From assembly GCA_903837595.1 (NCBI GenBank), contig CAILVI010000562.1, positions 29,975 through 93,974 on the forward strand: 64,000 nt of DNA, given 5' to 3'. This DNA comes from an uncultured Thiodictyon sp. Its GTDB lineage: Bacteria > Pseudomonadota > Gammaproteobacteria > Chromatiales > Chromatiaceae. The notes under the pieces were generated by a model. That model had not been told where the DNA came from. It made no database searches and saw only the letters and a program-made list of their open reading frames with translations. The position numbers and the translations under genes were made by a program. Positions within the stretch are counted from its first letter, which is position 1. Each line of letters begins with the position of its first letter. Of the stretch, positions 1 through 26,085 are shown piece after piece.

Positions 1-272
1 GGCGCTTGGTGGCCATTAAGCACTCTGGCGAGATGGCTGCTCGGTTTTGAGCAAGCCGACTGCCGCGACGTGCGGCGTCGGATTGGACCTTGCTCGCTGG
101 AAAGGCCGAAAAGCTTCGACAACTGGACCAGTTACGAGTGGCGGCGGCACGCCCCAAAGGCATGCCCTGCTTTTGGCACAGTTAGTGCTGCTTGCTGAAG
201 ACTGATTGCCCCAACTGGGGTGGCGATAGCCGCTGGGGCGAAGTATTCATTCAATGATACGGGAGAAAAGAC
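1..272. other. Upstream region of operon 1, no gene supported
   Basis: No recognisable gene lies here. A strong GC hairpin sits at 56-81 (CCGAC, one bulged T, GCCGC, 5-nt loop, GCGGC, GTCGG). It has no T-run after it, so it is not a clear terminator. A sigma-54 type promoter follows at 174. No TGT-N10-ACA activator site was found in the visible part; one could lie left of the window. Confidence 0.5.
174..189 (+). promoter_or_regulatory. Sigma-54 (-24/-12) promoter of operon 1
   Basis: The sequence TGGCACAGTTAGTGCT fits the RpoN consensus TGGCAC-N5-TTGC, with GG at 175-176 and GC at 187-188 at the required spacing. Only the first T of TTGC differs. It lies about 84 bases before the first start codon of operon 1. 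The match was judged by eye. Two similar elements at 15325 and 23082 upstream of functionally related genes raise confidence. Confidence 0.7.
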
Positions 273-1127
273 ATGGCAGCCTCTGAAAAGATCCAAGGCA
301 TTTTCGCCGGTGTAGACGTCGGTTCGCTTGCCTCGAAGTCGGTAATCATTCGCGACGGTGAGATCGCCGGGTTCGGGCTGATTCCGTCCGGGCTGAACTC
401 TGAAGAAAGCGGCCTCAATGCGCTCGCGGCGGCGCTGGAAAGTGCGGGGCTCGAGCGCTCCGATATCAGCCACATCGTCTCTACCGGCTATGGGCGGATT
501 TCCGCAAGTTATGCCTCCAAGACAGTCACCGAAATCACCTGTCACGCCAAGGGTGCGAACTATCTGTTTCCCAATGCCCGCACGATCATCGACATCGGCG
601 GGCAGGATTGCAAAGCCATCCGGGTCAACGGGGACGGTTCCGTGGCCGATTTTGCCATGAACGACAAGTGTGCGGCCGGGACCGGGCGATTCCTCGAGGT
701 CATGGCCGGGCTGTTTAAGGTATCTCTTTCGGAACTGGGCGATCTCTCCCTCAAGGCCGACGCGGTGGTGCCAATGAGCAGCACCTGCACCGTATTCGTG
801 GAATCAGAAACGATCTCCCTGCTTGCCCGCGGCGAAAAGCCGCACAATATTCAGGCCGGCATTCATCATGCCATCGCTAATCGTATCGCCGGGTTGTTCT
901 CACGGGTCGGTATTCAGAGTGACGTCTATTTCTCCGGCGGTGTGGCGAAGAACAAGGGGATGCGCAAGGCACTCGAGGAGGTCCTCAAGGTCAATATCGT
1001 CGAGCCCTATTTCGATCCGCAACTGACCGGGGCTTTAGGCGCCGCGGTGCTGGCCCAGGCGATCGCGGTGAAGGAGGCAAAGAAGGGCCGGCAGCAGGAG
1101 AGCAGCGCGATCCAATCGGCTGCTTAA
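273..1127 (+). CDS. ATP-dependent activator of a 2-hydroxyacyl-CoA dehydratase / benzoyl-CoA reductase-type enzyme (BcrA/BcrD/HgdC family)
   Basis: This 284-residue protein belongs to the ASKHA-fold ATPases that hydrolyse ATP to push one low-potential electron onto a partner reductase. The N-terminal phosphate loop reads GVDVGSLASKS, the second nucleotide motif IDIGGQDCKAI. Two cysteines sit in the family cluster motifs (DKCAAGTGRF and STCTVFVESE); in relatives they bridge a [4Fe-4S] cluster between two subunits. The start has a good ribosome site (GGGAGAAAAG). It is the first gene of a long plus-strand operon with its presumed ferredoxin donor and HgdA/HgdB-like partners downstream. The substrate cannot be read from the sequence. 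Confidence 0.9.
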   Translation: MAASEKIQGIFAGVDVGSLASKSVIIRDGEIAGFGLIPSGLNSEESGLNALAAALESAGLERSDISHIVSTGYGRISASYASKTVTEITCHAKGANYLFPNARTIIDIGGQDCKAIRVNGDGSVADFAMNDKCAAGTGRFLEVMAGLFKVSLSELGDLSLKADAVVPMSSTCTVFVESETISLLARGEKPHNIQAGIHHAIANRIAGLFSRVGIQSDVYFSGGVAKNKGMRKALEEVLKVNIVEPYFDPQLTGALGAAVLAQAIAVKEAKKGRQQESSAIQSAA

Positions 1128-1171
1128 ACCGATCCGCTCAGAGTTCCGGTCCCTGCTGGAGGGGGGACGGA

Positions 1172-1429
1172 ATGTTGTTATCACGGGGTGTCTACGTGGC
1201 CTTCACTATTGCCAGTTCGTGCATCGCCTGCGGCGACTGCTGGAATGCCTGTCCCCAAGACAGTGCGATCATTCCTGGGGATCTGTATCGGATCGATGAG
1301 GACGCCTGCCTGGCCTGCGGCGTCTGTGCCGATATCTGTCCCACCTCCAGCATCTTTGAACCCCGCCCGGTCACTGCCGGCGGCGGGTGCGGTGCGGTCA
1401 ACCACCTGGTGGATTTACGCAATGAATAA
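1172..1429 (+). CDS. 2[4Fe-4S] ferredoxin
   Basis: An 85-residue bacterial-type ferredoxin with two complete cluster motifs, CIACGDCWNACP and CLACGVCADICP. It is a likely soluble electron donor to the ATP-dependent activator encoded just upstream, as in benzoyl-CoA reductase and 2-hydroxyglutaryl-CoA dehydratase systems. A strong GGAGGGGGG ribosome site precedes the ATG. The last codons overlap the start of the next gene, so translation is probably coupled. The short C-terminal tail (about 25 residues, GGGCGAVNH) holds an extra cysteine of unknown role. Confidence 0.93.
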   Translation: MLLSRGVYVAFTIASSCIACGDCWNACPQDSAIIPGDLYRIDEDACLACGVCADICPTSSIFEPRPVTAGGGCGAVNHLVDLRNE

Positions 1430-2363
1430 TGGACTGGCGCTTGAGCGACCCGACCCTGTTTGGGAGGCAGATGAGTTGGCGGTGCATTGGCCTCGCGCAG
1501 CGGGCGAGCGGCGGGTGGACAGTGCCGCCGAGACCACGCCGCTAACGGTTCTTGCCGCGGTGCCGAGCGCTCCGCTGTTGGAGGTGCGGGACCTCGTCAT
1601 CACCTATGAAAACCAGAACACCGGCGAGCTAACGGAGGCGGTCAGCCACGTCAGTCTCAATATCCAGGCAGGGGAGTTCGTCACTATTGTCGGGCTCAGC
1701 GGCTGTGGCAAGTCCTCCTTCCTCAATGCGGTGGCCGGTCTGGTTAAGCCGGCCTCGGGCACGATGAAGGTCGCCGGCAAGCGTATCGACGGCCCGGGGC
1801 CTGACCGCTCGGTGGTCTTCCAGAAGGCGACACTCCTGCCGTGGCGGACCGTGATGGACAACATCATCTACGGACTGGAACTGCGGGGTGTGCCCAAGCC
1901 CATCGCCAGGGAAAGGGCGGAAAGTTGCATCGACCTGGTCCGGTTGCGGGGCTTCGAGCACTTTCATCCTCATGCCCTCTCCGGGGGCATGCAGCAACGC
2001 GTCAACCTCGCGCGGGCACTGGTGACGGAGCCTCAACTCCTGCTCTTGGATGAGCCGTTTGCGGCACTCGACGCGATCACCCGTGAGACGATGCAGAATG
2101 AGTTGCTGTCGATCTGGAACGTCACCCGCAAGACCGTGCTCATGGTCACCCATCAGATCGACGAGGCGGTGCTGCTGTCCGATCGGGTCATCGTCTTCTC
2201 CGACCGGCCCGCGCGCATCGGCACTGAATTCAAGATCAATCTGCCCAGGCCCCGTACCCAGGAGGCCCGCTACAGCCCCGCCTTTGACTACCTCGCCAAA
2301 GAGGTCTTCGGGGTGATTCACAGCAGCGCGAGCAAGCGCGAGGAACCTGAGTATGTCATCTGA
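1422..2363 (+). CDS. ABC transporter ATPase, nitrate/sulfonate/taurine (SsuB/TauB) type
   Basis: A 313-residue ATPase. Walker A is GLSGCGKSS, the signature is LSGGMQQR and Walker B is LLLLDEPFAALD, followed by the switch histidine in MVTHQIDEA. Together with the next gene it forms the inner-membrane importer for small organic anions or related solutes. The ATG at 1422 was chosen because it overlaps the ferredoxin stop by 8 bases; the open frame extends further upstream only as a shadow of the ferredoxin gene. About 55 poorly conserved residues precede the ATPase domain, a longer leader than usual for the family. Confidence 0.92.
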   Translation: MNNGLALERPDPVWEADELAVHWPRAAGERRVDSAAETTPLTVLAAVPSAPLLEVRDLVITYENQNTGELTEAVSHVSLNIQAGEFVTIVGLSGCGKSSFLNAVAGLVKPASGTMKVAGKRIDGPGPDRSVVFQKATLLPWRTVMDNIIYGLELRGVPKPIARERAESCIDLVRLRGFEHFHPHALSGGMQQRVNLARALVTEPQLLLLDEPFAALDAITRETMQNELLSIWNVTRKTVLMVTHQIDEAVLLSDRVIVFSDRPARIGTEFKINLPRPRTQEARYSPAFDYLAKEVFGVIHSSASKREEPEYVI

Positions 2364-3153
2364 CGCCCGTCGCTTCCGTGCCCGCAAGTTCCGGGAAAAC
2401 CTTTTCAGCCTGGGCCTGAGCGGGGGCGTCTTTGTGCTGTTGTTCGCCACCTGGGAATTCGTTGCGCGAGCCCACCTGGTCGACCCGATGTTCTCAAGTT
2501 CACCCTCCCAAGTGCTACTGACCGGTTGGGAACTGATCAACAATGGGACCCTGCTCAAGCACGTGCTGGCGAGCGGAAAGGTGTTCCTGACCGGCTTCGG
2601 TTTGGCGGTGATTCTCGGTATTCCGATCGGGGTCGCGCTCGGCTGGTTCAAGTGGTTCAACCGCGCCTTCAGCCCATTGGTCTCGGCCTTCTACACGATG
2701 CCACGGATCGCGCTCATGCCGCTGTTCATCATCTGGTTTGGTCTGGGCATGGGGTCCAAGGTCGCGCTGATCCTGTTGAGCGCCATTTTCCCGCTCATCG
2801 TCAACATGCAGGTGGCGATGCAGAACATCGATGCCGATTACAAGCGGGTCGGCATCGCCTACGGGGCCAACCAGTGGCAGTTGTTCAGCACAGTTGCATT
2901 GCCGTCCTCCATCCCCTTTCTGCTGACCGGCCTGCGCCTGGCCATGGGGCGTGGGCTGCTGGGGGTGGTCGCGGCGGAAGTGTTCGGGGGGGCGGAGGGT
3001 CTGGGCTATATGATTCAGTATGCCGGGGCGACCTTCCAGATCGATGTCGTATTTGTCGGGGTGGTGGTCATCGCGACCATCGGTGTGATCATGGATCGTA
3101 GCCTCGCCTACGCGAGTCGCCGGGTCGACTCCTGGAAGATCACCGAGACCTGA
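2353..3153 (+). CDS. ABC transporter permease, SsuC/TauC type
   Basis: A 266-residue inner-membrane permease with about six hydrophobic segments. The cytoplasmic EAA-type loop (VALPSSIPFLLTGLRLAMG) contacts the ATPase. It overlaps the ATPase gene by 11 bases, which supports a stoichiometric complex. It is the only permease visible in the island, although two ATPases and two substrate-binding proteins are encoded nearby. Members of this family import nitrate, sulfonates, taurine, pyrimidine precursors and similar molecules, so the substrate is open. Confidence 0.92.
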   Translation: MSSDARRFRARKFRENLFSLGLSGGVFVLLFATWEFVARAHLVDPMFSSSPSQVLLTGWELINNGTLLKHVLASGKVFLTGFGLAVILGIPIGVALGWFKWFNRAFSPLVSAFYTMPRIALMPLFIIWFGLGMGSKVALILLSAIFPLIVNMQVAMQNIDADYKRVGIAYGANQWQLFSTVALPSSIPFLLTGLRLAMGRGLLGVVAAEVFGGAEGLGYMIQYAGATFQIDVVFVGVVVIATIGVIMDRSLAYASRRVDSWKITET

Positions 3154-3260
3154 GCGGGCTGCGTCTCCCGCACTTTTGATCCAGCTCTCCACCGCCGCCG
3201 TGGCCAAGTGACGGCGGGGCGCGAGCGGGTTTGGTTTTCAACGATCGAGAGGAACATGAC

Positions 3261-4448
3261 ATGGCACTGAACGCATTGGAATTGATCTATAAACGGCTCA
3301 GGGAGCGGCCGCAGGAGTTGGTCGAGGCCCGGGCGAACGGGGCCAAGGTGGTCGGATTCCAGGCCTATAATTTGCCCGAGGAGGTCATCTACGCCCTCGG
3401 GCTCATCCCGGTACGCCTGGGCTCAGGTGGCGATGGCGACCTGGTGGAGGTCGGTGGCCGCTACATCTCAACGAAGAACTGCGTCTATGTACGTTCAACG
3501 GTCGGTCTCTTCGCCGAGAACACCGACCCCTACATCGTCAACAGCGACATCGTCGCCTTCGATGCCACCTGCCTGCAGACCTTCCGGACGGCTGAAGTGG
3601 TCCAGTATTACTTCAACCGTGAGGTCATTATTCTCGGGGTACCGCGCAACTTCTATCTGCAAGAGGCGCATACCTATTTTGCTGCCGAACTGCGCCATTT
3701 CGTGAGTCGGCTGGAGGCCATCAGCGGTGTGACGCTCACCCGCGAACGGCTGGCCGACTCGATTGCACTCTATAATGGCATCCGTGATGCCATCGTGCGG
3801 ATCTATCCGTATCAAGCCACCAAGAATCCGGCCATCTCCTGGGAGCAGGTGTTTGACGTCATTCAGGCCGGGTATGTGCTGGATCGGCGTGAATACCTGG
3901 GCCTGCTGGAATCGCTGCTGGCGGAGTTGGTGCAACAGCGCGGGGCCCCGGTGATCGGGGGCGAGGACGACGAGGCTCGCATTTTCATTTCCGGCAGCAC
4001 CATCCCGCCCGGCGACAAGAAGCTCATCAGCATCATGCAGGAACTGGGCGGGCGTATCGTGGGTGATGACCTGTGGTCGGGGCTCATCCCCTATGTCGAT
4101 GTGCAGATCGAGGATGCCACCCTGGAGGCACTGGCCAGCGCCTATCTCAACCGCACCCCGCATGGCGCGCTGCCGTATCTGGAACTGGCGACCGACCGGC
4201 GGATCAAGCGGCTGAAGGAACTGATCACGACGTTTAAGGCCAACGGGGTGATCTATCACACCTTGCGCTATTGCGACCCCTACACCTTCAAGGCGAAGGA
4301 GACCAAGGACATCCTGGAGAAGGAGGGCATACCGCTCCTGGAACTGCACACCGAATATGCGGGTTCCGACTTCGAGGCCATTCGTACCCGGGTCGAGGCC
4401 TTTGTAGAAATGGTCAAGTTGCGGGCGGAGTCGGAGGAGGCGGCATGA
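3261..4448 (+). CDS. HgdB/BcrC-like subunit of a 2-hydroxyacyl-CoA dehydratase / benzoyl-CoA reductase-type enzyme
   Basis: A 395-residue protein with the HgdB/BcrC layout. Three cysteines suited to bind a [4Fe-4S] cluster lie at about C74 (STKNCVYV), C104 (DATCLQTF) and C338 (LRYCDPYT). In the family this subunit pairs with an HgdA/BcrB subunit and takes electrons from the ATP-driven activator. ATG 3261, 9 bases after GAGAGGA, was preferred over an in-frame TTG at 3231. Its stop overlaps the next start (ATGA). Double-cubane cluster proteins belong to the same superfamily, so a non-CoA small-molecule substrate is possible. Confidence 0.88.
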   Translation: MALNALELIYKRLRERPQELVEARANGAKVVGFQAYNLPEEVIYALGLIPVRLGSGGDGDLVEVGGRYISTKNCVYVRSTVGLFAENTDPYIVNSDIVAFDATCLQTFRTAEVVQYYFNREVIILGVPRNFYLQEAHTYFAAELRHFVSRLEAISGVTLTRERLADSIALYNGIRDAIVRIYPYQATKNPAISWEQVFDVIQAGYVLDRREYLGLLESLLAELVQQRGAPVIGGEDDEARIFISGSTIPPGDKKLISIMQELGGRIVGDDLWSGLIPYVDVQIEDATLEALASAYLNRTPHGALPYLELATDRRIKRLKELITTFKANGVIYHTLRYCDPYTFKAKETKDILEKEGIPLLELHTEYAGSDFEAIRTRVEAFVEMVKLRAESEEAA

Positions 4449-5878
4449 GCGCGGTACCACAATACATCACCCGTTCCAGTGTCAGCGATACGGCGGAGTA
4501 TTTCCGCTATCCTGACGAGGTCCGCGAGCAGTTCATCGCGACCGATGACATCGAGTTTCGCGACGGCTCCCGCGTCACGTCCCTGGAGGTCTGGGACTAC
4601 CTGACACAGGTCGGGCCGGTCAAGTATCCAAACCTTTACGACAACAGCAGTCTGTATACCGGGCGGTTGTCGCACGATGTGACCTTCGCGTTCAATCTCA
4701 AGAACGCCTATCTCAGCATGACCATGCACGAGCGCATGACGAAGGCCAAGGCCCAGGGCCGCCCTATCGTCTTCGTGCAGGGCGGGCAGAGCGTCGACCC
4801 CTATTACGCGGCGGGTGCGGTTGCGCTGCGCCCGGCCAGTACCGGCAGCTGGGCGCGGGGCCAGCGGGAGGGCCTGACCCGCAACCAGGACGAGTTGGAA
4901 AGTCGCAGTGATAAGCAGAAGGCGTATAACGCGATCAGCTTCGAGGTCTGCAACTCGGCCGGCTACGAGCACATCCAGGAGGGCAATGTGCCGGCCGACA
5001 TGGTGGCACCCTATACGGCGTTGCGCTGCTCGGATGTCTCCTACGGCACCGAGGCACACCGCCACGGACCGCGCGCCAAGGAGGTAAAGTTGCTCCTGGT
5101 GGACTATCCCCTGGACCATCAGCGGGACAAAGAGTGGGCCATCAGGTATTTCGCCGATAACCTGCATCGGCTGACCCGCAGCATCGACGAGCAGACGGGC
5201 CGCAAGACTACCGACGACGACCTGGCGAGGGAGATCAAACTCCATAACGAAGGCCGCCGTCTGGCGATTGAGATCGCCGATCTGTGGTGGTCGGCGGACC
5301 TGGCCCCGACCAATGGCCGGGATCGCCGCTCACTGTTTCTGCTCGGGGGCATGGAGACCCACGGCGACCCGGTGGCGAGTCTCTCCCTCCTGCGCGAGGC
5401 CCGACGCGACATCGAGAAGCGTGTCAGGCAGGGGCACCGGACCGAGGGTGTCCTGGACAATGCGGCCAGGCTCTTCGTCTGCGGCTCCTGTGTCTTTCCT
5501 AACGATCTGCGCACCGAGGAGGCGGGGGGCATCATCGTCGGCAACGACAATCATTGGAGCGACATCACCACCCTGGTGAACGAGGACGGCGACCCCTATT
5601 ACGAGTTGGCCCGTGCGGTGCTCTCCTATCCCTACGAACAGCCCCTCAAGGAGCGCGCCGGCTGGACCGTCGATCAGATCCGGAAGTCGCGGACCGACGG
5701 CGTGCTCTTCCTCTATAAATGGGGTTGCAATACCCAGTCCGCCATTGCGCGGCTGCTGGTGGATGAAATCAAGGCGCAGACCGGCATCCCCACCATCATC
5801 ATCGAGGATGACATGACCCGCACGCAGACCGAGCAGCTGCAAAACCGGGTCAATTCATTCATCGAGATGGTGTCCTGA
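4445..5878 (+). CDS. HgdA/BcrB-like reductase subunit, full-length copy 1
   Basis: A 477-residue protein of the 2-hydroxyacyl-CoA dehydratase alpha / BcrB type. Candidate cluster or active-site cysteines are C169 (EVCNSAGYEH), C195 (LRCSDVSYG), C346 and C349 (FVCGSCVFPND) and C428 (KWGCNTQSA). The C-terminus ends in the family pattern GIPTIIIEDDM...QLQNRVNSFIEM. It overlaps the BcrC-like gene by 4 bases, so these two are the most likely heterodimer. Two paralogues follow in the same operon, one shortened (5912) and one complete (7892). Confidence 0.87.
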   Translation: MSAVPQYITRSSVSDTAEYFRYPDEVREQFIATDDIEFRDGSRVTSLEVWDYLTQVGPVKYPNLYDNSSLYTGRLSHDVTFAFNLKNAYLSMTMHERMTKAKAQGRPIVFVQGGQSVDPYYAAGAVALRPASTGSWARGQREGLTRNQDELESRSDKQKAYNAISFEVCNSAGYEHIQEGNVPADMVAPYTALRCSDVSYGTEAHRHGPRAKEVKLLLVDYPLDHQRDKEWAIRYFADNLHRLTRSIDEQTGRKTTDDDLAREIKLHNEGRRLAIEIADLWWSADLAPTNGRDRRSLFLLGGMETHGDPVASLSLLREARRDIEKRVRQGHRTEGVLDNAARLFVCGSCVFPNDLRTEEAGGIIVGNDNHWSDITTLVNEDGDPYYELARAVLSYPYEQPLKERAGWTVDQIRKSRTDGVLFLYKWGCNTQSAIARLLVDEIKAQTGIPTIIIEDDMTRTQTEQLQNRVNSFIEMVS

Positions 5879-5911
5879 CGTGCCGCGCCGCCAAGTCGCT
5901 GGGAGAGTCCT

Positions 5912-6856
5912 ATGAGTGCCTTGCCGAAATCGCTCGTCAGCAGCGTGAGCGACGCACCGCAGTACTACCGTTATCCGGAGGAACTCCGCGAGGAGTTCGT
6001 GGCCACCGACGACATCGAGTTCCGCGATGGCTCCAGCGTCACGGCGGCGCAGGTCTGGCACTATCTGACCGAGATCGGCCCGGTAAAGTACGCCAACCTG
6101 TACGAGAAGCACCGGCTTTACTCGGGGCGATTCCCGCGTGATGTGTCATTTCCCTTTACGCTCAAGGACACCTATCTCAGCATGACCATGGAGGATGACC
6201 TGGCGCGCGAGATCAAGCTGCACAACGCCGGGCGCCGCTTGGCGATCGAGATTGCGGACCTGTGGTGGTCGGCGGACCAGTCACCGACCAACGGGAGGGA
6301 CCGGCGTTCGCTTTTCCTGCCCGGCGGGATGGAGACCCATGGTGACCCGGTGGCGAGTCTCTCGTTGTTGCGCGAGGCCAAACGGACCATCGAAAAGCGG
6401 GTCAAGGAGGGGCATCGTGCTGAAGGGGCTCAGCACGATGCGGTGCGGCTCTTCGTGTGCGGTTCCTGCGTCTTCCCGAACGACTTCCGGACCGAAGAGG
6501 CCGGCGGGATCATCGGCGGTAACGACAATCATTGGAGCGACATCACGACCCTGGTCAACGAAGCGGGTGACCCCTATACGGAGCTGGCGCGGGCGGTCCT
6601 CTCCTATCCCTACGAGCAGCCGCTGAAGGAACGCGCCAGCTGGACCGCGGACCAGATCAAACCGTCGCGCGCCGATGGCGTGCTCTTCCTCTACAAGTGG
6701 GGCTGCAACACCCAGTCGGCGATCGCGCGGTTGCTGGTTGACGAATTGCGGGCCCAGACCGGCGTGCCGACCATTATCATTGAGGATGACATGGGGGCGA
6801 CCCAGACCGAGCAGTTGCAGAACCGAGTCAATTCATTTGTGGAGATGGTGTCATGA
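5912..6856 (+). CDS. HgdA/BcrB-like paralogue with a large in-frame internal deletion
   Basis: A 314-residue protein. Residues 1-93 and 94-314 match the N- and C-terminal parts of the 477-residue copy upstream, but 163 residues between LSMTM and DDLAREIK are absent without a frameshift. The missing block contains the counterparts of C169 and C195, two probable cluster ligands; the CGSC and KWGCNTQSA cysteines remain. The start has a GGGAGAG ribosome site and the stop overlaps the next gene (ATGA), so the operon structure is intact. It may be a decaying duplicate or a repurposed subunit. An assembly artefact is also possible. Confidence 0.8.
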   Translation: MSALPKSLVSSVSDAPQYYRYPEELREEFVATDDIEFRDGSSVTAAQVWHYLTEIGPVKYANLYEKHRLYSGRFPRDVSFPFTLKDTYLSMTMEDDLAREIKLHNAGRRLAIEIADLWWSADQSPTNGRDRRSLFLPGGMETHGDPVASLSLLREAKRTIEKRVKEGHRAEGAQHDAVRLFVCGSCVFPNDFRTEEAGGIIGGNDNHWSDITTLVNEAGDPYTELARAVLSYPYEQPLKERASWTADQIKPSRADGVLFLYKWGCNTQSAIARLLVDELRAQTGVPTIIIEDDMGATQTEQLQNRVNSFVEMVS

Positions 6857-7857
6857 CGTTGCGACCAGGCATGAGAAAAGGGCGGCGCATCCTCGTTATT
6901 ACGCTATTGACCTGCTTGGCGTGCCTGGGGTTTGCACCGGCACAGGGTGACCTTGGCGGGACGCCATCGGCAGCGGCGCTGGTCCCCGTGCGCCTCGCCA
7001 ACCTGGGGGTCGGGTTGGCCTCCATGCCCCAGGCGTTGGCCATCGAGCGGGGCATCTTCACCCGCAACGGGATCGATCTGCGGGTGATCAATTTCGTCAA
7101 TGGGGGGGCCGAGGCGACGGCCGGGGTGGCCAGCGGTCAGGTGGACATCGGCAGCTACGGGACGCCGATCCTGATCGGGCTGGCGTTCGGCCTGCCCATC
7201 AAGATCGTCGCCTCCCCGCCGGTCAAGGTCACCGGTTTCGAGTTGGTGGCCAAACCAGAGATCCACTCGGTCAAGGACCTGAAAGGCCAGGTCGTCACCA
7301 GCGGCGCCCTGGGCGGCGGCAGTCACCAGGCGCTGTTGAAGATCCTGCAAAGCAACGGCCTGTCGGATAGCGAGGTCAAGATCGTCGCCGCCGGTGGCGC
7401 CGATGCCGAGATGGTGCTGCGTTCCGGGCGGGTGGCGGCCGTTGTGACCTCGGAGCCGACCCGCCGCAAGCTGGAGGACGACGGGCGCGGCCGCCTGATC
7501 GCCAAGGCCAGCGACTACTACGGGCGTCATCAGCACGGTTTCATCTTTGCCACCAACGCCTTTATCGCGAAGCACCCGGACAGCGTGCGGGCGTACCTGC
7601 GGGCCACGCGTGAATCGCTCCAGTATGCACAGACTCACCTGGATGAGCTGGTTGACTTTTCCGCCGCCCGGATCCGGCTCAAGAAGGACATCATCCGCGC
7701 CTACTTTGAGGAGCAGTTTAAGGTCTGGGATCTGAGCTTCCAGGTCGATGTGGAAGGCACCGCCAATGCCGTGCAGGTCCTCAAAGAATTGAAAGAGATC
7801 AAGGCCACGGCGGTCTTTGATCCCAACACCTGGCTGGACACACGCTTCCTGAATTGA
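6853..7857 (+). CDS. ABC transporter substrate-binding protein, NMT1/SsuA type (copy 1)
   Basis: A 334-residue secreted protein with an N-terminal basic and hydrophobic signal segment (RRILVITLLTCLACLGFA). A lipoprotein-like processing site at the second cysteine cannot be excluded. The body has the pattern of nitrate/sulfonate/THI5-type binding proteins, with GVASGQVDIGSYG near residue 95. It should deliver solute to the permease encoded at 2353. It overlaps the shortened BcrB-like gene by 4 bases. It resembles the binding protein at 9340 but is clearly divergent, which suggests a different ligand or affinity. Confidence 0.88.
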   Translation: MTLRPGMRKGRRILVITLLTCLACLGFAPAQGDLGGTPSAAALVPVRLANLGVGLASMPQALAIERGIFTRNGIDLRVINFVNGGAEATAGVASGQVDIGSYGTPILIGLAFGLPIKIVASPPVKVTGFELVAKPEIHSVKDLKGQVVTSGALGGGSHQALLKILQSNGLSDSEVKIVAAGGADAEMVLRSGRVAAVVTSEPTRRKLEDDGRGRLIAKASDYYGRHQHGFIFATNAFIAKHPDSVRAYLRATRESLQYAQTHLDELVDFSAARIRLKKDIIRAYFEEQFKVWDLSFQVDVEGTANAVQVLKELKEIKATAVFDPNTWLDTRFLN

Positions 7858-7891
7858 GCCCGGTGCATTACCACGACCCCTGGAGACTTTA

Positions 7892-10302: not shown

Positions 10303-10326
10303 CAGTACCTCCAACGGAGAACGCGC

Positions 10327-18851: not shown

Positions 18852-18852
18852 T

Positions 18853-20226
18853 ATGACGATCGTCCACGAGGATAGAAACGGCTGTGCTCTGCACGGGGGT
18901 GTGCGCCTGCTTGGCGCGATCGGCGGCCTGGTGCCGATCGTGCATGCCAACGCCGGGTGCAGCCTGGGCGCGACCCTGGCCGACGGCACCCCGAGCGGCA
19001 GCGGCGGGCCGCGTTACACCGGGCCGCTGGAAACCAGTTCCACCACCCTGGTCGAACGCCATGTGGTCTTTGGCGGCGGGTCGCGCCTGCGCGAGCAGAT
19101 CAAGAACACGGTCAAGGTGCTGGCCGGCGACGCCTATGTGGTACTCACCGGGTGCGTGCCGGAGGTGATCGGGGACGACGTCCCGGCGATGGTCAAGGAG
19201 GCTCGCCAACAGCATTTTCCGGTACTCAGCGTGGCGACCCCGGGCTTCAATGGCAACGCCTATCGCGGCTACGAGACCCTCCTGAACACGCTGGTCGACC
19301 AGTTGCCGCCGCTGCTTGATGAGGCGGCCGCGGCGGCGGATGCGGCCCCGGACGCGACGGCAGAAGCGATCAACCTGCTCGGTATCGCCCCCGGTCAGGA
19401 CGCCTTCTGGGAGGGTGATCTGCTCGAACTGGAGGGCTGGATCGGGCGCCTCGGCGTCCCGGTGCGCCGCCTGGTCGGCGTCGGCCAGACGAGCGCGGAT
19501 TGGCGCGTCCTGCCCCGCGCGCGGCTCAACGTCGTCCTGTCGCCCTGGGGTCGGGAGGCCGCCCGGCGGCTGCACAGCCGCCACGGGACGCCATTTGTCG
19601 ACTTCGGATGGCTCCCGGTGGGCAGTCGCGACCTGGCGCTCCTCATCGGACAGATCGGCCAGTCACTGGGGGTCGCGGCCGAGGGGATCGCGGCAGTCAC
19701 GCAGGCGCTCGATGTGCGTGAGCGTCACTTTCTCCAGAAGTTTGCCGCCAGCTATCTGCACCACGGGCTGCAGCAACGGGTGGCGATCGTCGGCGGCACG
19801 GCCTATGCCATCGGGCTCGCGCGCTACCTGGCCGGCACCCTGGGTCAGACGCTCGCCGCCGTGATCGTCACGGACGTCCCGGACGAGAGCCGGCGCCCGG
19901 ATATCACCGCCGCGCTCGGCGGCGGCGCGGAGGCGGTCCTGTTCAGCGACAGTAGCGATGAGATTGCCGCCGCGCTGACGGCCGCCGCACCGCAGGTCAT
20001 CTTCGGCAGCGTCATCGAGGCCGGCGCCGCCCGGGCACTGGACGCGCCGCTGGTCATCACCGCTGCGCCGACCGGTCACAGCCCGGTGCTGGTGCGCAGC
20101 TATGCCGGCATCGCCGGTGCCCTGGCCTTGGCGGAGGACTTCAGCGCCGCGGTGATCCGCCACCAGGCGGCGGCGGACGAGCACGCGGCCGGCACGGCAT
20201 GGCCGCTGTCGCGACGCGCCGCATGA
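18853..20226 (+). CDS. Nitrogenase-like subunit, NifK/NifE fold (three P-cluster-type cysteines)
   Basis: A 457-residue partner of the preceding subunit. It keeps three cysteines in P-cluster positions: C11 (NGCALHGG), C36 (NAGCSLGA) and C101 (VVLTGCVPEVIGDD). With one cysteine from the partner this gives a 3+1 ligand set, as in NifEN, which carries a [4Fe-4S] cluster there, rather than the 3+3 set of NifDK. The ATG lies one base after the preceding stop and its own stop overlaps the MFS start. Substrate unknown; it could be a reductase or a cofactor-assembly scaffold. Confidence 0.82.
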   Translation: MTIVHEDRNGCALHGGVRLLGAIGGLVPIVHANAGCSLGATLADGTPSGSGGPRYTGPLETSSTTLVERHVVFGGGSRLREQIKNTVKVLAGDAYVVLTGCVPEVIGDDVPAMVKEARQQHFPVLSVATPGFNGNAYRGYETLLNTLVDQLPPLLDEAAAAADAAPDATAEAINLLGIAPGQDAFWEGDLLELEGWIGRLGVPVRRLVGVGQTSADWRVLPRARLNVVLSPWGREAARRLHSRHGTPFVDFGWLPVGSRDLALLIGQIGQSLGVAAEGIAAVTQALDVRERHFLQKFAASYLHHGLQQRVAIVGGTAYAIGLARYLAGTLGQTLAAVIVTDVPDESRRPDITAALGGGAEAVLFSDSSDEIAAALTAAAPQVIFGSVIEAGAARALDAPLVITAAPTGHSPVLVRSYAGIAGALALAEDFSAAVIRHQAAADEHAAGTAWPLSRRAA

Positions 20227-21467
20227 GTGCGGGCGCGACCCGGCCGATGGCGACGCGCGGCGTCCTCGGCGGTTTCCTGGTCCTGAATGTCGTCAGCGGC
20301 ACCGTGGCCGGGGCCATGCAGTTGATGGTCCCGCTGTTTGCACTCCAACTGCTGGCGACGACGGCCCAGATCGGCATGATCCGCGGCATCTCCGGGCTCG
20401 GCCTGCTGCTGCTGGTGATCCCCGCGGGCTTTCTGGTGGATCACTTCGGCGCGCGCCGGCTGTTCCTGCTGGGCAGCCTGGTCGGTACGGTCCTGACCTT
20501 CGCGATCCCGTTGTCCCAGATACCGTTGCACCTGCTCGCGCTGCAAGGGGCACTCGGCCTTTTCGCGTCGCTCAAGTCGACCGCGCTCACCTCCTCTTTC
20601 TTTTCCCGGATCAGGGAGATGGGCATTGCCCGCGCCGGATGGTACAAGGGCTCGATGTCCATCGGTTTGAGCTTCCTTGGGCCGCTGTTGGCGGCCGCAC
20701 TGACGCAGGCGCTGGCCCCCGAGCAGATCTTCCGGCTGTTGGCCGTGATGACCCTGTTACCGATCGCGCTCGTCTTCTTCTTTCATGAGGAGGCCCGACC
20801 CGCGGCCCGCCAATCTGGCCTCACCGCCGGCATCCGGGCGCAATTGAGCGACCTGCGCGCCCTGCTCGCGAATAACCCGCTGGTGTTGCCCCTGCTCACC
20901 GAGGCGGCGGCCGGGGGCTGTTTTGCGGCCTTTACCGCCTTCATCGTGCCGATCGTGGTCCTCTCGCTGCACCTGCCCGGCGGCTTTGCCTCGGTCCTGA
21001 CCAGCCTGGAGGGTGGGGCCTTCATCCTGACGGTCTTCCTCGCCGGTGGGCTGATCAGGCACCTGTCCCCGCTGCAGCTCTACCTGCTCGCGGTCACGGT
21101 GACCCTGGGTGCCCTGATCGGACTGGGGGTTCCCGGGGAGGTGTTCCGGGTCGCGGCCTTCTCCGTGGTGCTGGGGGTGGGCCTGGGGCTCTTCAATCTG
21201 GTTACGGCCATGCGCCAGGGGCTGATCAAGGGCGAGAAGGGCAAGGCCGTCTCGCTCTTCGGGGCCTCGATCGGTATTGGACTGTGTCTCGGCCCGTTGT
21301 TGGGCGGCCAGGTCGGTGCGCACTTCTACCCCAGCGCGGCCTTCATCGCCTTCGTCCCCGTCTTCCTCGCCCTGGCCGCGCTCGCGGTCCGCGAGGCGCG
21401 TATCCACGGTCCGGCGCTGGCCCTGGCCTTCCGCGGGGGGCCGGTGGGCGAGGCCGCGGAGGCTTGA
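20223..21467 (+). CDS. MFS transporter
   Basis: A 414-residue integral membrane protein with about 12 hydrophobic helices and the MFS loop motif GFLVDHFGARRLFLLG. The ATG overlaps the stop of the nitrogenase-like gene (ATGA), so it is translationally coupled. It may export a product or import a substrate of the nitrogenase-like enzyme. Direction and cargo cannot be read from the sequence. Confidence 0.88.
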   Translation: MSAGATRPMATRGVLGGFLVLNVVSGTVAGAMQLMVPLFALQLLATTAQIGMIRGISGLGLLLLVIPAGFLVDHFGARRLFLLGSLVGTVLTFAIPLSQIPLHLLALQGALGLFASLKSTALTSSFFSRIREMGIARAGWYKGSMSIGLSFLGPLLAAALTQALAPEQIFRLLAVMTLLPIALVFFFHEEARPAARQSGLTAGIRAQLSDLRALLANNPLVLPLLTEAAAGGCFAAFTAFIVPIVVLSLHLPGGFASVLTSLEGGAFILTVFLAGGLIRHLSPLQLYLLAVTVTLGALIGLGVPGEVFRVAAFSVVLGVGLGLFNLVTAMRQGLIKGEKGKAVSLFGASIGIGLCLGPLLGGQVGAHFYPSAAFIAFVPVFLALAALAVREARIHGPALALAFRGGPVGEAAEA

Positions 21468-21504
21468 TCCGCCGGTACCCACTGACATCAATAAGGATTC
21501 ACCC

Positions 21505-22647
21505 ATGACCGCCCCCCGCCTCGCACCGCAGCTCACCGGCCTCCGTTGCTTTGCCTGCGGGCAAAGCCACGATCCCCGCACCCTGCAAAGCCTCTGCACG
21601 CACTGCGGCCTGCCGCTGCGGGTCGACTACGACCTGTCCGCCGTCCAGCTGTGGCTCACCGACCTCGCCGACCGGCCGCCGACCCTGTGGCGCTACCGCG
21701 AGGTCCTGCCGTTGCACGACACTGATGCGGTCTCGCTCGCCGAAGGCTTCACGCCGCTGCTGCCCGTCGGCGACGGCGTCTGGGTCAAAGACGAGGCCCG
21801 CAACCCGACGGGCTCCTTCAAGGCGCGTGGCATGGCGGTGGCGGTCTCGATGGCCAAGCAATTGGGTGCGCGGGGCTTGTCCGCCCCCTCGGCCGGCAAC
21901 GCGGCCGGTGCGCTGGCCGCCTACGGGGCGCGCGCCGGCATGCCGGTGACGGTGGCGATGCCGCAGGACACCCCCACGGCCTTCTTTGACGAATGCGAGC
22001 TCTACGGCGCCACCATCCACCGTGTTGCGGGGACCATCGCCGACGCCGGTAAGTTCCTGCGCGAGCATGGACCCAAAGACGCCTTCGATATCTCGACCTT
22101 GCGCGAGCCGTATCGGATCGAAGGCAAGAAAACGATGGGATACGAACTGGTCGAGCAATTCGCGGGCGAGGTGCCGGACGTGGTGCTCTATCCCACCGGC
22201 GGCGGAACCGGCCTGGTCGGCATGTGGAAGGCCTTCAAAGAAATGGCACAGCTCGGCTGGATCGCACCGGGGATCTGCCCGCGCTTCGTCTCGGTCCAGG
22301 CCGCCGGTTGCGCGCCGGTCGCCAAGGCCTTTCACGCGGGCCAGGAGCGAACGGTGCCGTGGCCCGATCCTCACACCGCGGCGTACGGACTGCGCGTCCC
22401 ATCCCCATTGGGCGGCTTTCTCTGCGTCCAGGCCTTGCGTGAATCGCACGGGACGGCGATCACTATTGACGAAGACGATATGCAACGCGCTACCCGCGAC
22501 CTTGCTGTGCGCTCCGGTATCGACGTCTGCCCCGAGGGCGGCGCGGCCTGGGCCGCGTGGGAGCGCTTGCGCGAAAACGGATTCATCCGTGACGGCGAAC
22601 GTGTCGTCGTCTTCAATACCGGGACGGGATTGAAATACCGCGAATAG
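21505..22647 (+). CDS. PLP-dependent enzyme of the threonine synthase family with N-terminal zinc ribbon
   Basis: A 380-residue fold-type II PLP enzyme. The N-terminal four-cysteine ribbon (CFACG and CTHCG) precedes the lysine motif NPTGSFKARG, where Lys should form the Schiff base. A glycine-rich phosphate loop (PTGGGTGLVGMW) follows. The family makes threonine from O-phosphohomoserine or performs related beta- or gamma-replacement reactions. As the last gene of operon 2 it is probably not housekeeping; a replacement reaction with a sulfur or nitrogen nucleophile is possible but inferred. Confidence 0.85.
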   Translation: MTAPRLAPQLTGLRCFACGQSHDPRTLQSLCTHCGLPLRVDYDLSAVQLWLTDLADRPPTLWRYREVLPLHDTDAVSLAEGFTPLLPVGDGVWVKDEARNPTGSFKARGMAVAVSMAKQLGARGLSAPSAGNAAGALAAYGARAGMPVTVAMPQDTPTAFFDECELYGATIHRVAGTIADAGKFLREHGPKDAFDISTLREPYRIEGKKTMGYELVEQFAGEVPDVVLYPTGGGTGLVGMWKAFKEMAQLGWIAPGICPRFVSVQAAGCAPVAKAFHAGQERTVPWPDPHTAAYGLRVPSPLGGFLCVQALRESHGTAITIDEDDMQRATRDLAVRSGIDVCPEGGAAWAAWERLRENGFIRDGERVVVFNTGTGLKYRE

Positions 22648-22694
22648 AGCGTTCCGCCTTGCCTTGCGACCGGGCTAAGCCCCGAAGGGGCGCG

Positions 22695-22851
22695 ACATAC
22701 CAGCCCAGGGCAACGCCCTGGGATAGCATTGCGTCATTGGTCTAGCCCTGAAAGGGCGTGACATAATGGTGGAGATCCATCTGTCACGCCCTTATAGGGC
22801 TAGGCCCCCCTATATGCCTCATACCCAGGGCGTTGCCCTGGGCTGGTATGT
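22695..22851. repeat. Nested inverted repeats (REP-like, CCCAGGGC family)
   Basis: An outer 28-bp inverted pair (22695-22722 and 22824-22851, core CCCAGGGC-AAC-GCCCTGGG) encloses an inner 21-bp pair (22743-22763 and 22782-22802, core TAGCCCT...AGGGC). Every arm is itself a hairpin. A related block lies at 27335-27377. It may act as a transcript end for operon 2 or be a mobile REP-type repeat; there is no T-run. Confidence 0.75.
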
Positions 22852-22909
22852 TCGACCCCGTTGGGGTCGGCACGCAAGATAGGGTGGAACCGGGTACGAG
22901 TTGTCCGCC

Positions 22910-23081: not shown

Positions 23082-23097
23082 TGGCACGATTGCTGCT
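23082..23097 (+). promoter_or_regulatory. Sigma-54 (-24/-12) promoter of the radical SAM genes
   Basis: TGGCACGATTGCTGCT has correct GG to GC spacing and differs from the operon 2 promoter at two positions only. It lies 71 bases before the radical SAM start codon. Confidence 0.78.
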
Positions 23098-23167: not shown

Positions 23168-24517
23168 ATGACCCAACTCGATCAGCGTGCAGCAGCACCG
23201 CATCTCCGCGTGAGCCCCGGCATCCAGGGTGTTGCGCTTGACCTGCACGCGCCGACGCCTGCCCTCGGTAGCGAGATCCGCTTCGGCGCACAACCGAAAC
23301 AGTCCGCCAATGCCGGATTGAAGGATGCGCTGTATCGCGAGCTGGAGTTGCATGTCGATCTGTCGGTGCAGGGTGTCAATATCGACCCGGCGGACCATGC
23401 CGCGTTGAATGCCCTGGGCGGCGGCAGGACCTTCGGTCCCACGCGCCTGGACGAAGACCTCACACTGCAATTGCCGTCATTTTATCTGCCCCACGGGTTA
23501 TCCGCCGGCGTCCGGCTCAGTCCCCATTCGGTCTATGGCCTGGTGGTCGAGGACGGCGAGCCGGTGCTCTGCCGTTACGGCAAACGCCGGACCTTGGTTG
23601 CCAAGCTGGATTATCGCAGAAAGCCCAAGTCGCCCCTGGCCGGCCGGGTGACCTCCGATGGCGTGAGCTTCGAGGACATCGCAAGAATCGATGAGACCAC
23701 CGGCCTGGTGCATGTCTCCTACAGCAAGGAGTGCTCGTTAAAGGACAAAGGCGAGGAATGCAAGTTCTGCAATTACGACAACCGCAACGCCATCGTCAAG
23801 ACGCCGCGACAGGTGGGCGAGCTCTTTGCTGCGGCGGTCGAGGCGGGGGTGGCCAGCAGCTTCCACCTGACTGGCGGTTTCATCCCCGAGCGTCGTGAGC
23901 TGGAGCACTATATCGATGTGGCCGAGGAGATCAAGGCGCGGACCGGCCTGGAAGGCTTCGTCGGTTCCATCTCCATGGGGGCGACCGAAGACTATACGAT
24001 CTTCGACAAGTTGAAAGAGGCAGGTTATGTCATGATCGGCTCGAACATGGAGGTGTGGGATCGCAACTTCCGTAAGGCGATCGTCCCCGGCAAGGAAAAC
24101 CAGTGCGGCGGCTGGGACAACTGGGTGGCGTCGCTCGAATATGCCGTCAAGGTGTTTGGTACGACCAAGATCGTCTCCAACATCGTTGCCGGTATCGAGA
24201 CCAAGAAGTCCATCCTGGAGGGGGTCGAGTATCTGTGCTCCCGGGGCATCCTGGGCAACGCCGGCATCTGGCGGCCGACCCCCGGGACGGACCTGGAAGG
24301 CCATCAGACACCCTTGGCCTCCTGGCATCTCGATCTGGCATTCAAGCGGGTGGCCATCTATAAGAAATACGGCTTCACGCGGGAGCAGATCCATTCCTAT
24401 CACGGCGCCGGCGGGATCGCCGGGATCATTTATCGGATCGAGGATGAGTTGTTCGAGGATGGCAAGCTCAAGAGCCTCTACCATCCGCGGCTCACGCTGC
24501 AGAACCAAACCCACTGA
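23168..24517 (+). CDS. Radical SAM protein with unusual CX8CX2C cluster motif (copy 1)
   Basis: A 449-residue protein. The candidate radical SAM cluster ligands are C189, C198 and C201 (ECSLKDKGEECKFCNYDNRN), a CX8CX2C spacing instead of the usual CX3CX2C. The following barrel resembles BioB-type enzymes, with FHLTGG, GSISMGA, a GSNMEVWDRNF strand and the late HQTPLASWHLD. It is followed by a paralogue and lies under its own sigma-54 promoter next to the nitrogenase-like operon. It may mature a cofactor or transform the substrate. The ATG follows GGTGAG. Confidence 0.83.
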   Translation: MTQLDQRAAAPHLRVSPGIQGVALDLHAPTPALGSEIRFGAQPKQSANAGLKDALYRELELHVDLSVQGVNIDPADHAALNALGGGRTFGPTRLDEDLTLQLPSFYLPHGLSAGVRLSPHSVYGLVVEDGEPVLCRYGKRRTLVAKLDYRRKPKSPLAGRVTSDGVSFEDIARIDETTGLVHVSYSKECSLKDKGEECKFCNYDNRNAIVKTPRQVGELFAAAVEAGVASSFHLTGGFIPERRELEHYIDVAEEIKARTGLEGFVGSISMGATEDYTIFDKLKEAGYVMIGSNMEVWDRNFRKAIVPGKENQCGGWDNWVASLEYAVKVFGTTKIVSNIVAGIETKKSILEGVEYLCSRGILGNAGIWRPTPGTDLEGHQTPLASWHLDLAFKRVAIYKKYGFTREQIHSYHGAGGIAGIIYRIEDELFEDGKLKSLYHPRLTLQNQTH

Positions 24518-24557
24518 CAGCGACCGATCGACCGGCTCACGAAACAGGAATACAGCA

Positions 24558-25829
24558 ATGACTCAGCTCTCGACTGAACCGACCGCCGCGGCGCGTCCGC
24601 AACCAGCCTATCTCTCGAATCAGGCGCTGAAGGATGCGCTCTATAACGAACTGGAACTGCACGTCGACCTGGCGGTGCAGGGTGTGCAGGTGGACCCGGA
24701 GGACTATGCCGAGCTGCATCGCCTGGCGGGTGGTAAGGACTTGGGACCCACCACCTTGAGCGAGCTCAGGGCCCCGACCCTGCCGTCCTTTACCTTGCCC
24801 CATGGGCTGTCCGGCGACGCGCGCCAGAATGACCGTTCGATCTACGGTCTGGTGGTGGAGGATGGTCAGCCGGTGCTTTACCGTTACGGCAAGCGCACCA
24901 CCCGGATCGCCGAGGTGGAGTTCCCGCAACGGCCCAAGTCGCCGTTGGCCGGCCGGTTCACCAGCGACGGCGTGCCCTTTTCGGATATTGCCCGGGTCAG
25001 TTCGTCCACCGGGTTGGTTCATGTCTCCTTCAGCGTCGAATGCTCGCTGAAAGACAAGGGTGAGGAATGCAAGTTCTGCAATTACGACAATCGTAACAGC
25101 ATCATCAAGACCCCCCGCCAGGTGGCCGAGGTGTTTGCCGCCGCGATCGAGGCCGGGGTGGCAACCAGTTTCCACCTGACCGGCGGCTTCGTCCCCGAGC
25201 GCCGTGAGCTCGAGTATTACACCGATGTGGCCGAAGAGATCCGGGCGCACACCGGCCTGGACGACTTCGTCGGCTCCATCTCGATGGGTGCACCGGCTGA
25301 CTACACCGTGTTCGACAAATTGAAAGAGGCCGGTTACTTCTTTATCGGCTCTAATATGGAGATCTGGGACCGGAACATTCGTAAGGCGATCGTACCTGGA
25401 AAGGAGAACGTCTGCGGCGGCTGGGACAATTGGGTGGGCGCACTGGAATACGCCGCCGGCGTCTTCGGTCGGGCGCACATCTCCTCCAATATCGTCGCGG
25501 GCATCGAAACGAAGAAGTCGGTGCTGGACGGCGTCGAATATCTGGCCTCGCGCGGCATCCTGGGTAAGGCCGGGATCTGGCGTCCGACGGATGGCACGGA
25601 CCTTGAAGGCCACCAGACCCCGGAGGCGGCATGGCACCTGGACGTGGCCTACAAGCAGCGTGACATTTATCGGAAATACGGCTACACCCTGGATGAGATC
25701 CACGCACATCACAGCGCCGGCGGCTTGACCGGTCTGCTCTACCGGATCGAGGAGGAGTATTTCGAGAACGGTAAGCTCAAGCGCTGGCGTCACCCGACGC
25801 TGCAATTGGCGCTCAACAAGACTCATTGA
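24558..25829 (+). CDS. Radical SAM protein with unusual CX8CX2C cluster motif (copy 2)
   Basis: A 423-residue paralogue of the preceding protein, alike over nearly the whole length. Cluster motif C162, C171 and C174 in ECSLKDKGEECKFCNYDNRN, with the same GSISMGA, GSNMEIWDRN and HQTPEAAWHLD landmarks. The start was set at ATG 24558; the open frame upstream is only a shadow of the first gene. The pair may act as a heterodimer or on successive intermediates. The N-terminal 25 residues differ from copy 1. Confidence 0.83.
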   Translation: MTQLSTEPTAAARPQPAYLSNQALKDALYNELELHVDLAVQGVQVDPEDYAELHRLAGGKDLGPTTLSELRAPTLPSFTLPHGLSGDARQNDRSIYGLVVEDGQPVLYRYGKRTTRIAEVEFPQRPKSPLAGRFTSDGVPFSDIARVSSSTGLVHVSFSVECSLKDKGEECKFCNYDNRNSIIKTPRQVAEVFAAAIEAGVATSFHLTGGFVPERRELEYYTDVAEEIRAHTGLDDFVGSISMGAPADYTVFDKLKEAGYFFIGSNMEIWDRNIRKAIVPGKENVCGGWDNWVGALEYAAGVFGRAHISSNIVAGIETKKSVLDGVEYLASRGILGKAGIWRPTDGTDLEGHQTPEAAWHLDVAYKQRDIYRKYGYTLDEIHAHHSAGGLTGLLYRIEEEYFENGKLKRWRHPTLQLALNKTH

Positions 25830-25839
25830 TCCACCCACA

Positions 25840-26085
25840 ATGGCGAGGCCGTCGGGGGCGCGTGGGGGGGCGCAACCGGCCTCGGTCATCACTGCGGTCG
25901 TGCAACAAGGTCCGGTCATCTCGGAGGTCGATGTACAGACCGACGGGGGAATTGTTACCGCGACCATTACCACCGGCTCCATCAAACACCTGAAGCTCGC
26001 GGTCGGCAGCCAGGTCCTGGCGCTGATCAAGTCCAGCGATGTCGTGATCGCCACGCTGCGCAACGCCAACCACGACGCTCCATGA
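25840..26085 (+). CDS. Molbindin-like (Mop/TOBE) small protein
   Basis: An 81-residue protein whose residues 15-75 fit the TOBE/Mop fold seen in molbindins and ModE/ModC tails, with VQTDGGIVTATITTGSIKHLKLAVGSQVLALIKSSDVVIAT. Such domains bind molybdate or other oxyanions. It starts 10 bases after the second radical SAM gene but without a convincing ribosome site, so its start could be internal. Its place at the end of the nitrogenase-like island suggests a link with metal supply. Confidence 0.72.
   Translation: MARPSGARGGAQPASVITAVVQQGPVISEVDVQTDGGIVTATITTGSIKHLKLAVGSQVLALIKSSDVVIATLRNANHDAP

Follow-up and report, generated by a model that had tools for sequence, protein, structure and literature searches.

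Two ATP-driven reductase modules with Ssu-type importers in an uncultured Thiodictyon: a possible organosulfur-scavenging island

Why would one stretch of a bacterial genome carry two ATP-driven electron donors of different kinds, each alongside genes of an Ssu-type importer? The question is posed by bases 174-26085 of the DNA analysed here, 64,000 nucleotides from an uncultured Thiodictyon sp. (Chromatiaceae) which we call the window; it spans bases 29975-93974 of a contig of 94 kb, part of a draft genome of 7.79 Mb (576 contigs, 2.44% contamination). An earlier note on this DNA had proposed a single undescribed system which would import a small molecule and process it reductively, perhaps as a source of nitrogen or sulfur. 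Our preferred reading is an organosulfur-scavenging island composed of two modules that can be transferred separately; in each, an Ssu-type importer is paired with a low-potential reductase driven by ATP. We give this reading a probability of roughly one half (0.48). In this island an enzyme of a known type, isethionate reductase (Isr), is accompanied by an archerase module that is apparently undescribed.

Profile searches of the window's proteins (Pfam and NCBIfam) place operon 2 at approximately 15587-22647 on the forward strand and, behind it, two radical SAM (S-adenosylmethionine) genes and a TOBE gene (23168-26085). They recover the NifH homologue, the two nitrogenase-like subunits, the radical SAM paralogues and the molbindin-like protein reported in the earlier note, and add a second SsuB, a major facilitator superfamily (MFS) transporter and a pyridoxal phosphate (PLP) enzyme resembling threonine synthase:

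15587-16447, forward: second SsuB/TauB-type ATPase (SsuB2; NCBIfam), with possible SsuA/SsuC/SsuC partners just upstream of the window
16533-17408, forward: NflH, NifH-like Fe protein, ATP-driven electron donor 2 (PF00142, E 4.8e-92; 364.5 against a nifH equivalog cut-off of 394.35)
17409-18851, forward: NflD, Isr-like, nitrogenase component 1 (alignment and tree)
18853-20226, forward: NflK, Isr-like, nitrogenase component 1 (Cys11, Cys36, Cys101)
20199-21467, forward: MFS transporter, 53% identical to the MFS protein adjoining the radical SAM-NflHDK genes of locus L108
21505-22647, forward: PLP enzyme of the threonine synthase family (NF006050, over cut-off)
23168-24517, forward: variant radical SAM protein 1 (CX8CX2C), IsrB-like by position and partnership (NF045502, over cut-off)
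24558-25829, forward: variant radical SAM protein 2 (NF045502, over cut-off), 71% identical to protein 1
25840-26085, forward: single TOBE domain protein, molbindin-like (PF03459)

The cysteines of the nitrogenase-like subunits point to an enzyme type. Of the three P-cluster-type cysteines, NflD has the equivalent of NifD Cys88 alone, with proline at the Cys154 position and aspartate at the Cys275 position, and NflK retains all three (11, 36 and 101). As described in PMC11423573, IsrD has one P-cluster-type cysteine, proline or serine at the Cys154 position and neither Cys275 nor His442, and IsrK has three cysteines; the same source gives arginine in IsrD at the Cys62 position, where the residue of NflD varies with the alignment. 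Its account of growth has isrBHDK with ssuCAB enabling R. sphaeroides to grow on isethionate, an ethanol product not being demonstrated in that account. In phylogenetic trees the window's D and K sequences group with 12 other sequences of the one-cysteine D pattern, apart from ten three-cysteine ones (support 100/100 for D, 97/99 for K); these trees were built without Bch rows and without any named R. capsulatus Isr sequence, include four three-cysteine D/K pairs from two plasmids, one of Chlorohelix and one of Treponema, and contain one NflD (L115) cut by a contig end. Gene linkage agrees: among genomes carrying the HgdA family of operon 1, described below, the radical SAM family is present in all 11 that have a close NflK and missing from all 7 that do not, and in two loci (L108 and L114) nflH is immediately preceded by a radical SAM gene, in the position that isrB occupies. 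Because of the cysteine pattern, the one-cysteine clade and this linkage, we take operon 2 and the radical SAM genes to be Isr-like, an assignment that draws on the published cysteine pattern and on gene linkage rather than on comparison with a named Isr sequence. On the features tested, operon 2 thus fits an already described type and is not new. To our knowledge, Isr, which releases sulfite from a sulfonate, is the sole characterised enzyme with this cysteine pattern.

The closest solved structures to NflD and NflK are those of MarDK (E 2.9e-37 and 1e-59), which might make operon 2 a methylthio-alkane reductase (Mar). We regard this as highly improbable: besides lacking two of the three P-cluster-type cysteines, NflD has no cysteine equivalent to the MarD cofactor ligand Cys270, and the radical SAM partner falls in the variant_rSAM and MSMEG_0568 families, with no match to a NifB family.

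One Chlorobiaceae genome (G222) has nine matches to the variant radical SAM family and two close NflK genes. In Ruminiclostridium hungatei an arylsulfotransferase-family protein (PF05935; L109, 10671-12128) follows NflHDK, and four more nitrogenase-like D/K pairs, of the three-cysteine type, occur at L118-L121, with cysK-like genes near the L118 and L121 pairs and metY-like genes near the latter. A plasmid of Candidatus Chlorohelix allophototropha (L051) bears two nitrogenase-like HDK sets, one with nifB and an oxygenase of the isopenicillin N synthase family.

The second donor belongs to operon 1 (273-14244, forward strand). Here the same profile searches bore out the activator, the ferredoxin, the HgdA/HgdB-like proteins and the SsuBC-type importer of the earlier note, which had not listed the flavoprotein, the two methyltransferases, the dienelactone hydrolase (DLH)-type enzyme or the truncated HgdA copy:

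273-1127, forward: HgdC/BcrA-type ATPase activator, ATP-driven electron donor 1 (TIGR00241, E 1.5e-82, over cut-off; PF01869)
1172-1429 (in frame), forward: 2[4Fe-4S] ferredoxin (Fer4 on 1199-1429; two CxxCxxCxxxC motifs), likely the donor to the activator
1422-2363, forward: SsuB/TauB-type importer ATPase (NCBIfam)
2353-3153, forward: SsuC/TauC-type permease (NCBIfam)
3261-4448, forward: HgdB-like subunit (HGD-D; PF06050)
4445-5878, forward: HgdA-like subunit, copy 1 (HGD-D; PF06050; alignment)
5912-6856, forward: HgdA-like copy 2 (HGD-D), internally truncated, two cluster-type cysteines gone (alignment)
6853-7857, forward: SsuA/NMT1-type substrate-binding protein 1 (Pfam and NCBIfam)
7892-9283, forward: HgdA-like subunit, copy 3 (HGD-D), with invariant Cys 158, 183, 336, 415 and His193
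9307-10302, forward: SsuA/NMT1-type substrate-binding protein 2 (Pfam and NCBIfam)
10327-11835, forward: FAD_binding_2/flavocytochrome-c-like oxidoreductase, recurring in operon 1 homologues (profiles)
11835-12638 and 12671-13456, forward: two SAM-dependent methyltransferases (Pfam)
13453-14244, forward: DLH-family protein (Pfam)

Copy 2 of HgdA lacks about 150 internal residues, including the two cysteines, with its reading frame kept, and is probably a degenerate, decaying tandem duplicate.

A search of the three window HgdA copies against 84,980 species genomes yielded 19 loci, hosted by Bacillota metagenome-assembled genomes (MAGs), a Paenibacillaceae MAG, R. hungatei, Rhodospirillales/Acetobacteraceae MAGs, a MAG labelled Bathyarchaeota, and Chlorobiaceae. 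HgdA identity to the window lies at 45-83% across the Bacillota, Acetobacteraceae, Chlorobiaceae and Bathyarchaeota-labelled relatives, and distant hosts share 65-83% with it. Within the window's order, the 209 remaining genomes gave no HgdA match above 28.3 bits (12 had a weaker one), with at most 7 candidates scored per genome. Such identity in distant hosts, together with the lack of stronger matches in the order, points to horizontal transfer. Plasmid searches with HgdA, NflD, a radical SAM protein and the flavoprotein gave at most 44% identity among the matches listed.

The genes for SsuB, SsuC, activator, HgdB, HgdA and binding protein are clustered in L053, L054, L055 and L057; in L056 the set forms two divergent halves flanking a TonB-dependent receptor. 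By tblastn, the flavoprotein recurs in four of these five loci (L054-L057; L053 ends before it) and in L061, and the methyltransferases have no counterpart among the matches listed for loci L051-L071 (E 1e-8). Automatic reading frames were partly wrong in the GC-rich loci L056-L058, L060 and L108, for which tblastn matches were used instead.

What kind of enzyme would this set encode? Alignments of complete copies, taken from the window and from loci L053-L070 (omitting, for example, the window's copy 2, the L067 copies, one copy each from L065 and L069, and cut fragments) show three invariant cysteines in HgdB (74, 104 and 338 in 20 sequences), which are all the cysteines it has, and four in HgdA (158, 183, 336 and 415 in 30 sequences). 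In a profile alignment spanning HgdA residues 152-463, the alpha subunit of 2-hydroxyacyl-CoA dehydratase (HAD; CoA, coenzyme A) has cysteines aligned to 158, 183 and 415. Cys336 was considered as a peculiarity of the operon 1 family; this was dropped, as both the HAD alpha subunit and MbdN have a cysteine at the aligned place. The structural model of HgdA copy 3 (pLDDT 86.9) matches 20 chains of HAD, benzoyl-CoA reductase (BCR) and the double-cubane cluster protein (DCCP), with E from 2e-15 to 1e-11 and TM-scores of 0.59-0.68 on the query. Operon 1 thus displays the features of the BCR/HAD superfamily, namely an HgdC/BcrA-type activator and two HGD-D subunits with three cluster-type cysteines in each. 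DCCP itself was rejected for HgdB, which scores 206 bits against a cut-off of 350 (NF040772) and has three cysteines rather than six. In BzdN, according to PMC11971306, six cysteines hold an [8Fe-9S] cluster; judged by its sequence, HgdB could not bind a cluster of that kind, since it has only three.

These likenesses also accord with a plainer account, in which the modules are unrelated and share an anoxic niche, operon 1 being an ordinary CoA-thioester archerase that acts on a carboxylic acid taken up by the cell and is of the 2-hydroxyacyl-CoA dehydratase or aryl-CoA reductase type. The HgdA fold, the alignment with the HAD alpha subunit and the aligned Cys336 speak for it, genes of the DLH and FAH families lie nearby, and the separate occurrence and unequal divergence of the modules, reported below, are in keeping with it. 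However, no CoA ligase or CoA transferase is among the profile-named genes of operon 1 (the flanks of its relatives being only partly named), every score of operon 1 against HAD/BCR equivalog models falls under the cut-off, and the modules co-occur above background, with five linked loci. We consider this account rather unlikely. Since no CoA-activating gene is named in operon 1, there are hints that its substrate would be free rather than CoA-bound. Taken furthest, this would make operon 1 a new CoA-independent class of archerase, performing ATP-dependent C-S cleavage of a sulfonate delivered by the Ssu-type importer. ATP-driven reductive desulfonation would then have arisen twice among anaerobes, on the nitrogenase fold (Isr) as well as on the archerase fold, with both often present in the same organism; we hold this to be possible but doubtful.

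Do the two modules belong together? Among the 18 HgdA-family genomes, 11 contain a close NflK (E 1e-30 or better, at least 269 bits) and seven only weak matches (57 bits or less). In a sample of 398 genomes from the phylum, NflK at E 1e-30 was found in the window's own genome alone (0/397 others), this control being loose, with many aerobes in the sample and at most four candidates scored per genome. A closer comparison comes from 86 Chlorobiaceae genomes, where NflK occurs in 23, HgdA in 13 and both in 9, against about 3.5 expected; NflK is found in 9/13 genomes with HgdA and 14/73 without (p 6e-4 by a one-sided Fisher test, with no correction for kinship). Of the nine Chlorobiaceae with both, five (G220, G221, G223, G224 and G225) have HgdA and NflK on the same contig within 12 kb, and in the remaining four they are on separate draft contigs. 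The linkage is not general, as R. hungatei and the Paenibacillaceae MAG have the modules on different, long contigs. Some of the loci overlap, L102-L107 covering ground of L064, L065 and L069.

Divergence from the window also differs between modules within the same relative, HgdA1 being 82% and NflD 43% identical in genome G215, so that the two probably moved separately. A single obligate enzyme with two donors was therefore rejected: each module occurs alone, and their divergences differ. The modules are separable but associated, and often kept together. Of the idea of one system, the association above background stands and the single enzyme does not; import and reductive processing by two ATP-driven donors is supported, and some other genomes link the same modules.

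In three Chlorobiaceae (G222:C100, G226:C34 and G227:C51) an HgdA gene is the immediate neighbour of a variant radical SAM gene, an arrangement that bridges the modules. Another locus (L112, 607-4794, on G222:C26) encodes an HGD-D protein of another kind, which scores 66 bits against the double-cubane family, and two activator-like proteins (one has 677 aa). These genes are 4-7 kb from NflHDK, in the company of five or more radical SAM paralogues, and an archerase may here have been paired independently with an Isr-type enzyme.

Which element would such an island supply? The flanks of two operon 1 relatives speak for sulfur. In L054 a CymR-like regulator, cysE, cysK and a cystathionine-lyase-type gene lie on one side and metA on the other, with a fragment of another cystathionine-lyase-type gene where the contig breaks off. 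L061 has metY, part of metX and a cysteine-synthase-like gene, all within about 8 kb. Together with operon 1's own Ssu-type importer, these sulfur amino-acid genes support a role in sulfur acquisition, which we hold at about an even chance for operon 1 because only 2 of the 19 relative loci show such genes.

The alternative is nitrogen scavenging, the island belonging to an RpoN/nitrogen regulon and importing and reducing a nitrogenous small molecule. It draws on the promoters and on the genes that follow the island:

174-189, forward: sigma-54-type promoter-like site before operon 1 (TGGCAC-N6-TGCW)
15325-15340, forward: sigma-54-type promoter-like site before operon 2 (pattern match)
23082-23097, forward: sigma-54-type promoter-like site before the radical SAM genes (pattern match)
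29570, between rnfB and nifL: sigma-54-like site upstream of rnfB (pattern match)
27050-33231: rnfH, rnfC and rnfB (reverse), then nifL and nifA (forward), directly after the island, 1-7 kb downstream

The promoter type which the earlier note had thought shared is present, with TGGCAC-N6-TGCW found four times in the window against 0.31 expected, and the sigma-54 pattern also precedes nifH on contig C142. A slightly stricter pattern, which excludes the site at 174, has 33 matches in the genome against 16 in a reversed control, so that about half may be chance; five of the 33 are on this 94-kb contig. As the mark of a regulon shared outside this genome, however, the sites were rejected, the strict pattern occurring in 0/39 relative loci. 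TGT-N10-ACA, which we take to be a NifA-type motif, occurs at 23025, 57 bases before the 23082 site, and twice in the rnfB-nifL intergenic region (29731 and 29773). Near the promoters of operons 1 and 2 there is none, a result that covers the first 200 bases of the window and the 600 preceding them, and its count over the window (8 against 6.3 expected) is no more than chance. The described enzyme with operon 2's cysteine pattern, moreover, acts on a sulfonate, as reported in PMC11423573. We favour sulfur over nitrogen as the element gained and judge nitrogen scavenging unlikely, though nitrogen may still govern the island's regulation in view of the nifLA/rnf neighbourhood and the sigma-54-like promoters. 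Upstream of the window the same contig has two further sigma-54-like sites, at 8701 and 17342 (contig numbering, G000:C562), near a gene of TonB type and the gene for the TonB-dependent receptor.

Several observations weigh against an organosulfur-scavenging island. Firstly, as regards the pairing, seven of the 18 HgdA genomes have module 1 without module 2, 14 of the 23 NflK-bearing Chlorobiaceae lack HgdA and four have HgdA alone, and the phylum control is a loose one. Secondly, as regards the enzyme, three Chlorobiaceae relatives (L104, L106 and L113) have a cysteine in the NifD Cys275 column. Thirdly, as regards sulfur, the sulfur amino-acid genes searched for were not found near operon 1 in the other 17 of its 19 relative loci, and among the 12 Isr-type loci they appear in one (a weak cysE-like match, L108). 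Purple and green sulfur bacteria usually have sulfide, so that a need for organic sulfur is not obvious, and proteins of the NMT1/SsuA type bind sulfur-free ligands too. Finally, the island adjoins rnf, nifL and nifA, and its promoters are sigma-54-like.

If the organosulfur reading holds, the modules might work as follows. Module 2, comprising SsuB, NflHDK, the radical SAM proteins and possibly the upstream SsuA/SsuC/SsuC, would be an Isr-type enzyme in which electrons flow from NflH to NflDK at the expense of ATP; NflDK would carry a cluster with four cysteine ligands but no FeMoco-like cofactor and, together with its radical SAM partner, would cleave the C-S bond of a sulfonate and release sulfite. 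Module 1, comprising SsuBC, two binding proteins, ferredoxin, activator, HgdB, HgdA and flavoprotein, would be an enzyme of the BCR/HAD superfamily. By analogy with HAD and BCR, the activator, reduced by ferredoxin, would pass electrons to HgdA and HgdB, each of them offering a cluster site of three cysteines, and HgdA would cleave the imported substrate, most likely a sulfonate or other organosulfur compound, after which the flavoprotein may reduce or oxidise the carbon product. Reduced ferredoxin for both donors could come from the products of the neighbouring Rnf genes.

The surroundings complete the picture. Between the operons an FAH-family gene lies on the reverse strand (14290-15012), and inspection by eye of the intergenic stretch at 22650-22900 showed short GC-rich motifs, repeated and in part palindromic, that are possibly repetitive extragenic elements. 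Upstream of the window on the same contig are the SsuA-like gene and two SsuC genes (about 1 kb away), farther off an MFS gene, two ABC exporter-type genes and a TonB-dependent receptor gene, and, some 27 kb upstream of operon 1, metY and metX. The genome also encodes NifH, NifD, BchL and BchX, and its owner is thus probably a phototrophic diazotroph.

The suggestion of an undescribed system now divides: operon 2 fits the published Isr, as far as PMC11423573 describes it, and for operon 1 we found no description in the openly licensed literature, nor any openly licensed report linking an HgdA/B-activator operon with sulfonate import or a nitrogenase-like enzyme. The main text of PMC11423573 does not contain the words 'dehydratase' or 'BadF'. 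If our reading is correct, ATP-driven enzymes of a second, unrelated family contribute to the assimilation of organosulfur compounds by anaerobes; the two reductases may then let anaerobic cells pull sulfur from organic molecules. Isr-type enzymes would also be placed in the Chlorobiaceae, a name absent from that main text. Restriction to CoA esters is given in PMC11971306 as a current limitation of the BCR enzyme type, and the physiological relevance of DCCP's reactions is there called unclear; a transferable operon pairing an archerase with an importer offers a direct handle on a physiological, perhaps CoA-free, substrate.

Set beside known systems, operon 1 resembles DCCP and its reductase in that the double-cubane model is the best NCBIfam match of its HgdB (206 bits), yet differs in falling below the 350-bit cut-off and in having three invariant cysteines against the six of BzdN. 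With (R)-2-hydroxyisocaproyl-CoA dehydratase and the class I benzoyl-CoA reductases, as treated in PMC11971306, it shares an activator with two HGD-D subunits, three aligned cluster-type cysteines and the same fold, and it departs from them in its Ssu-type importer, its lack of a recognised CoA-activating gene, its scores below curated cut-offs and the long N-terminal part of HgdA before the first cluster-type cysteine. Operon 2, like MarBHDK (PMC12552129), is nitrogenase-like and probably reduces sulfur compounds, with Mar as its best solved-structure match; unlike Mar, which is described there as having a P-cluster and an [Fe8S9C] cofactor, it has an NflD without ligands of both. From IsrBHDK with SsuCAB of Rhodobacter capsulatus, as presented in PMC11423573 (2024), it differs in that the window's radical SAM genes are downstream and duplicated, and it shares the single cysteine in D and three in K, a residue of the Pro/Ser kind at the Cys154 position, no cysteine at the Cys275 position in the window's NflD, and the linked radical SAM genes and Ssu-type transporter.

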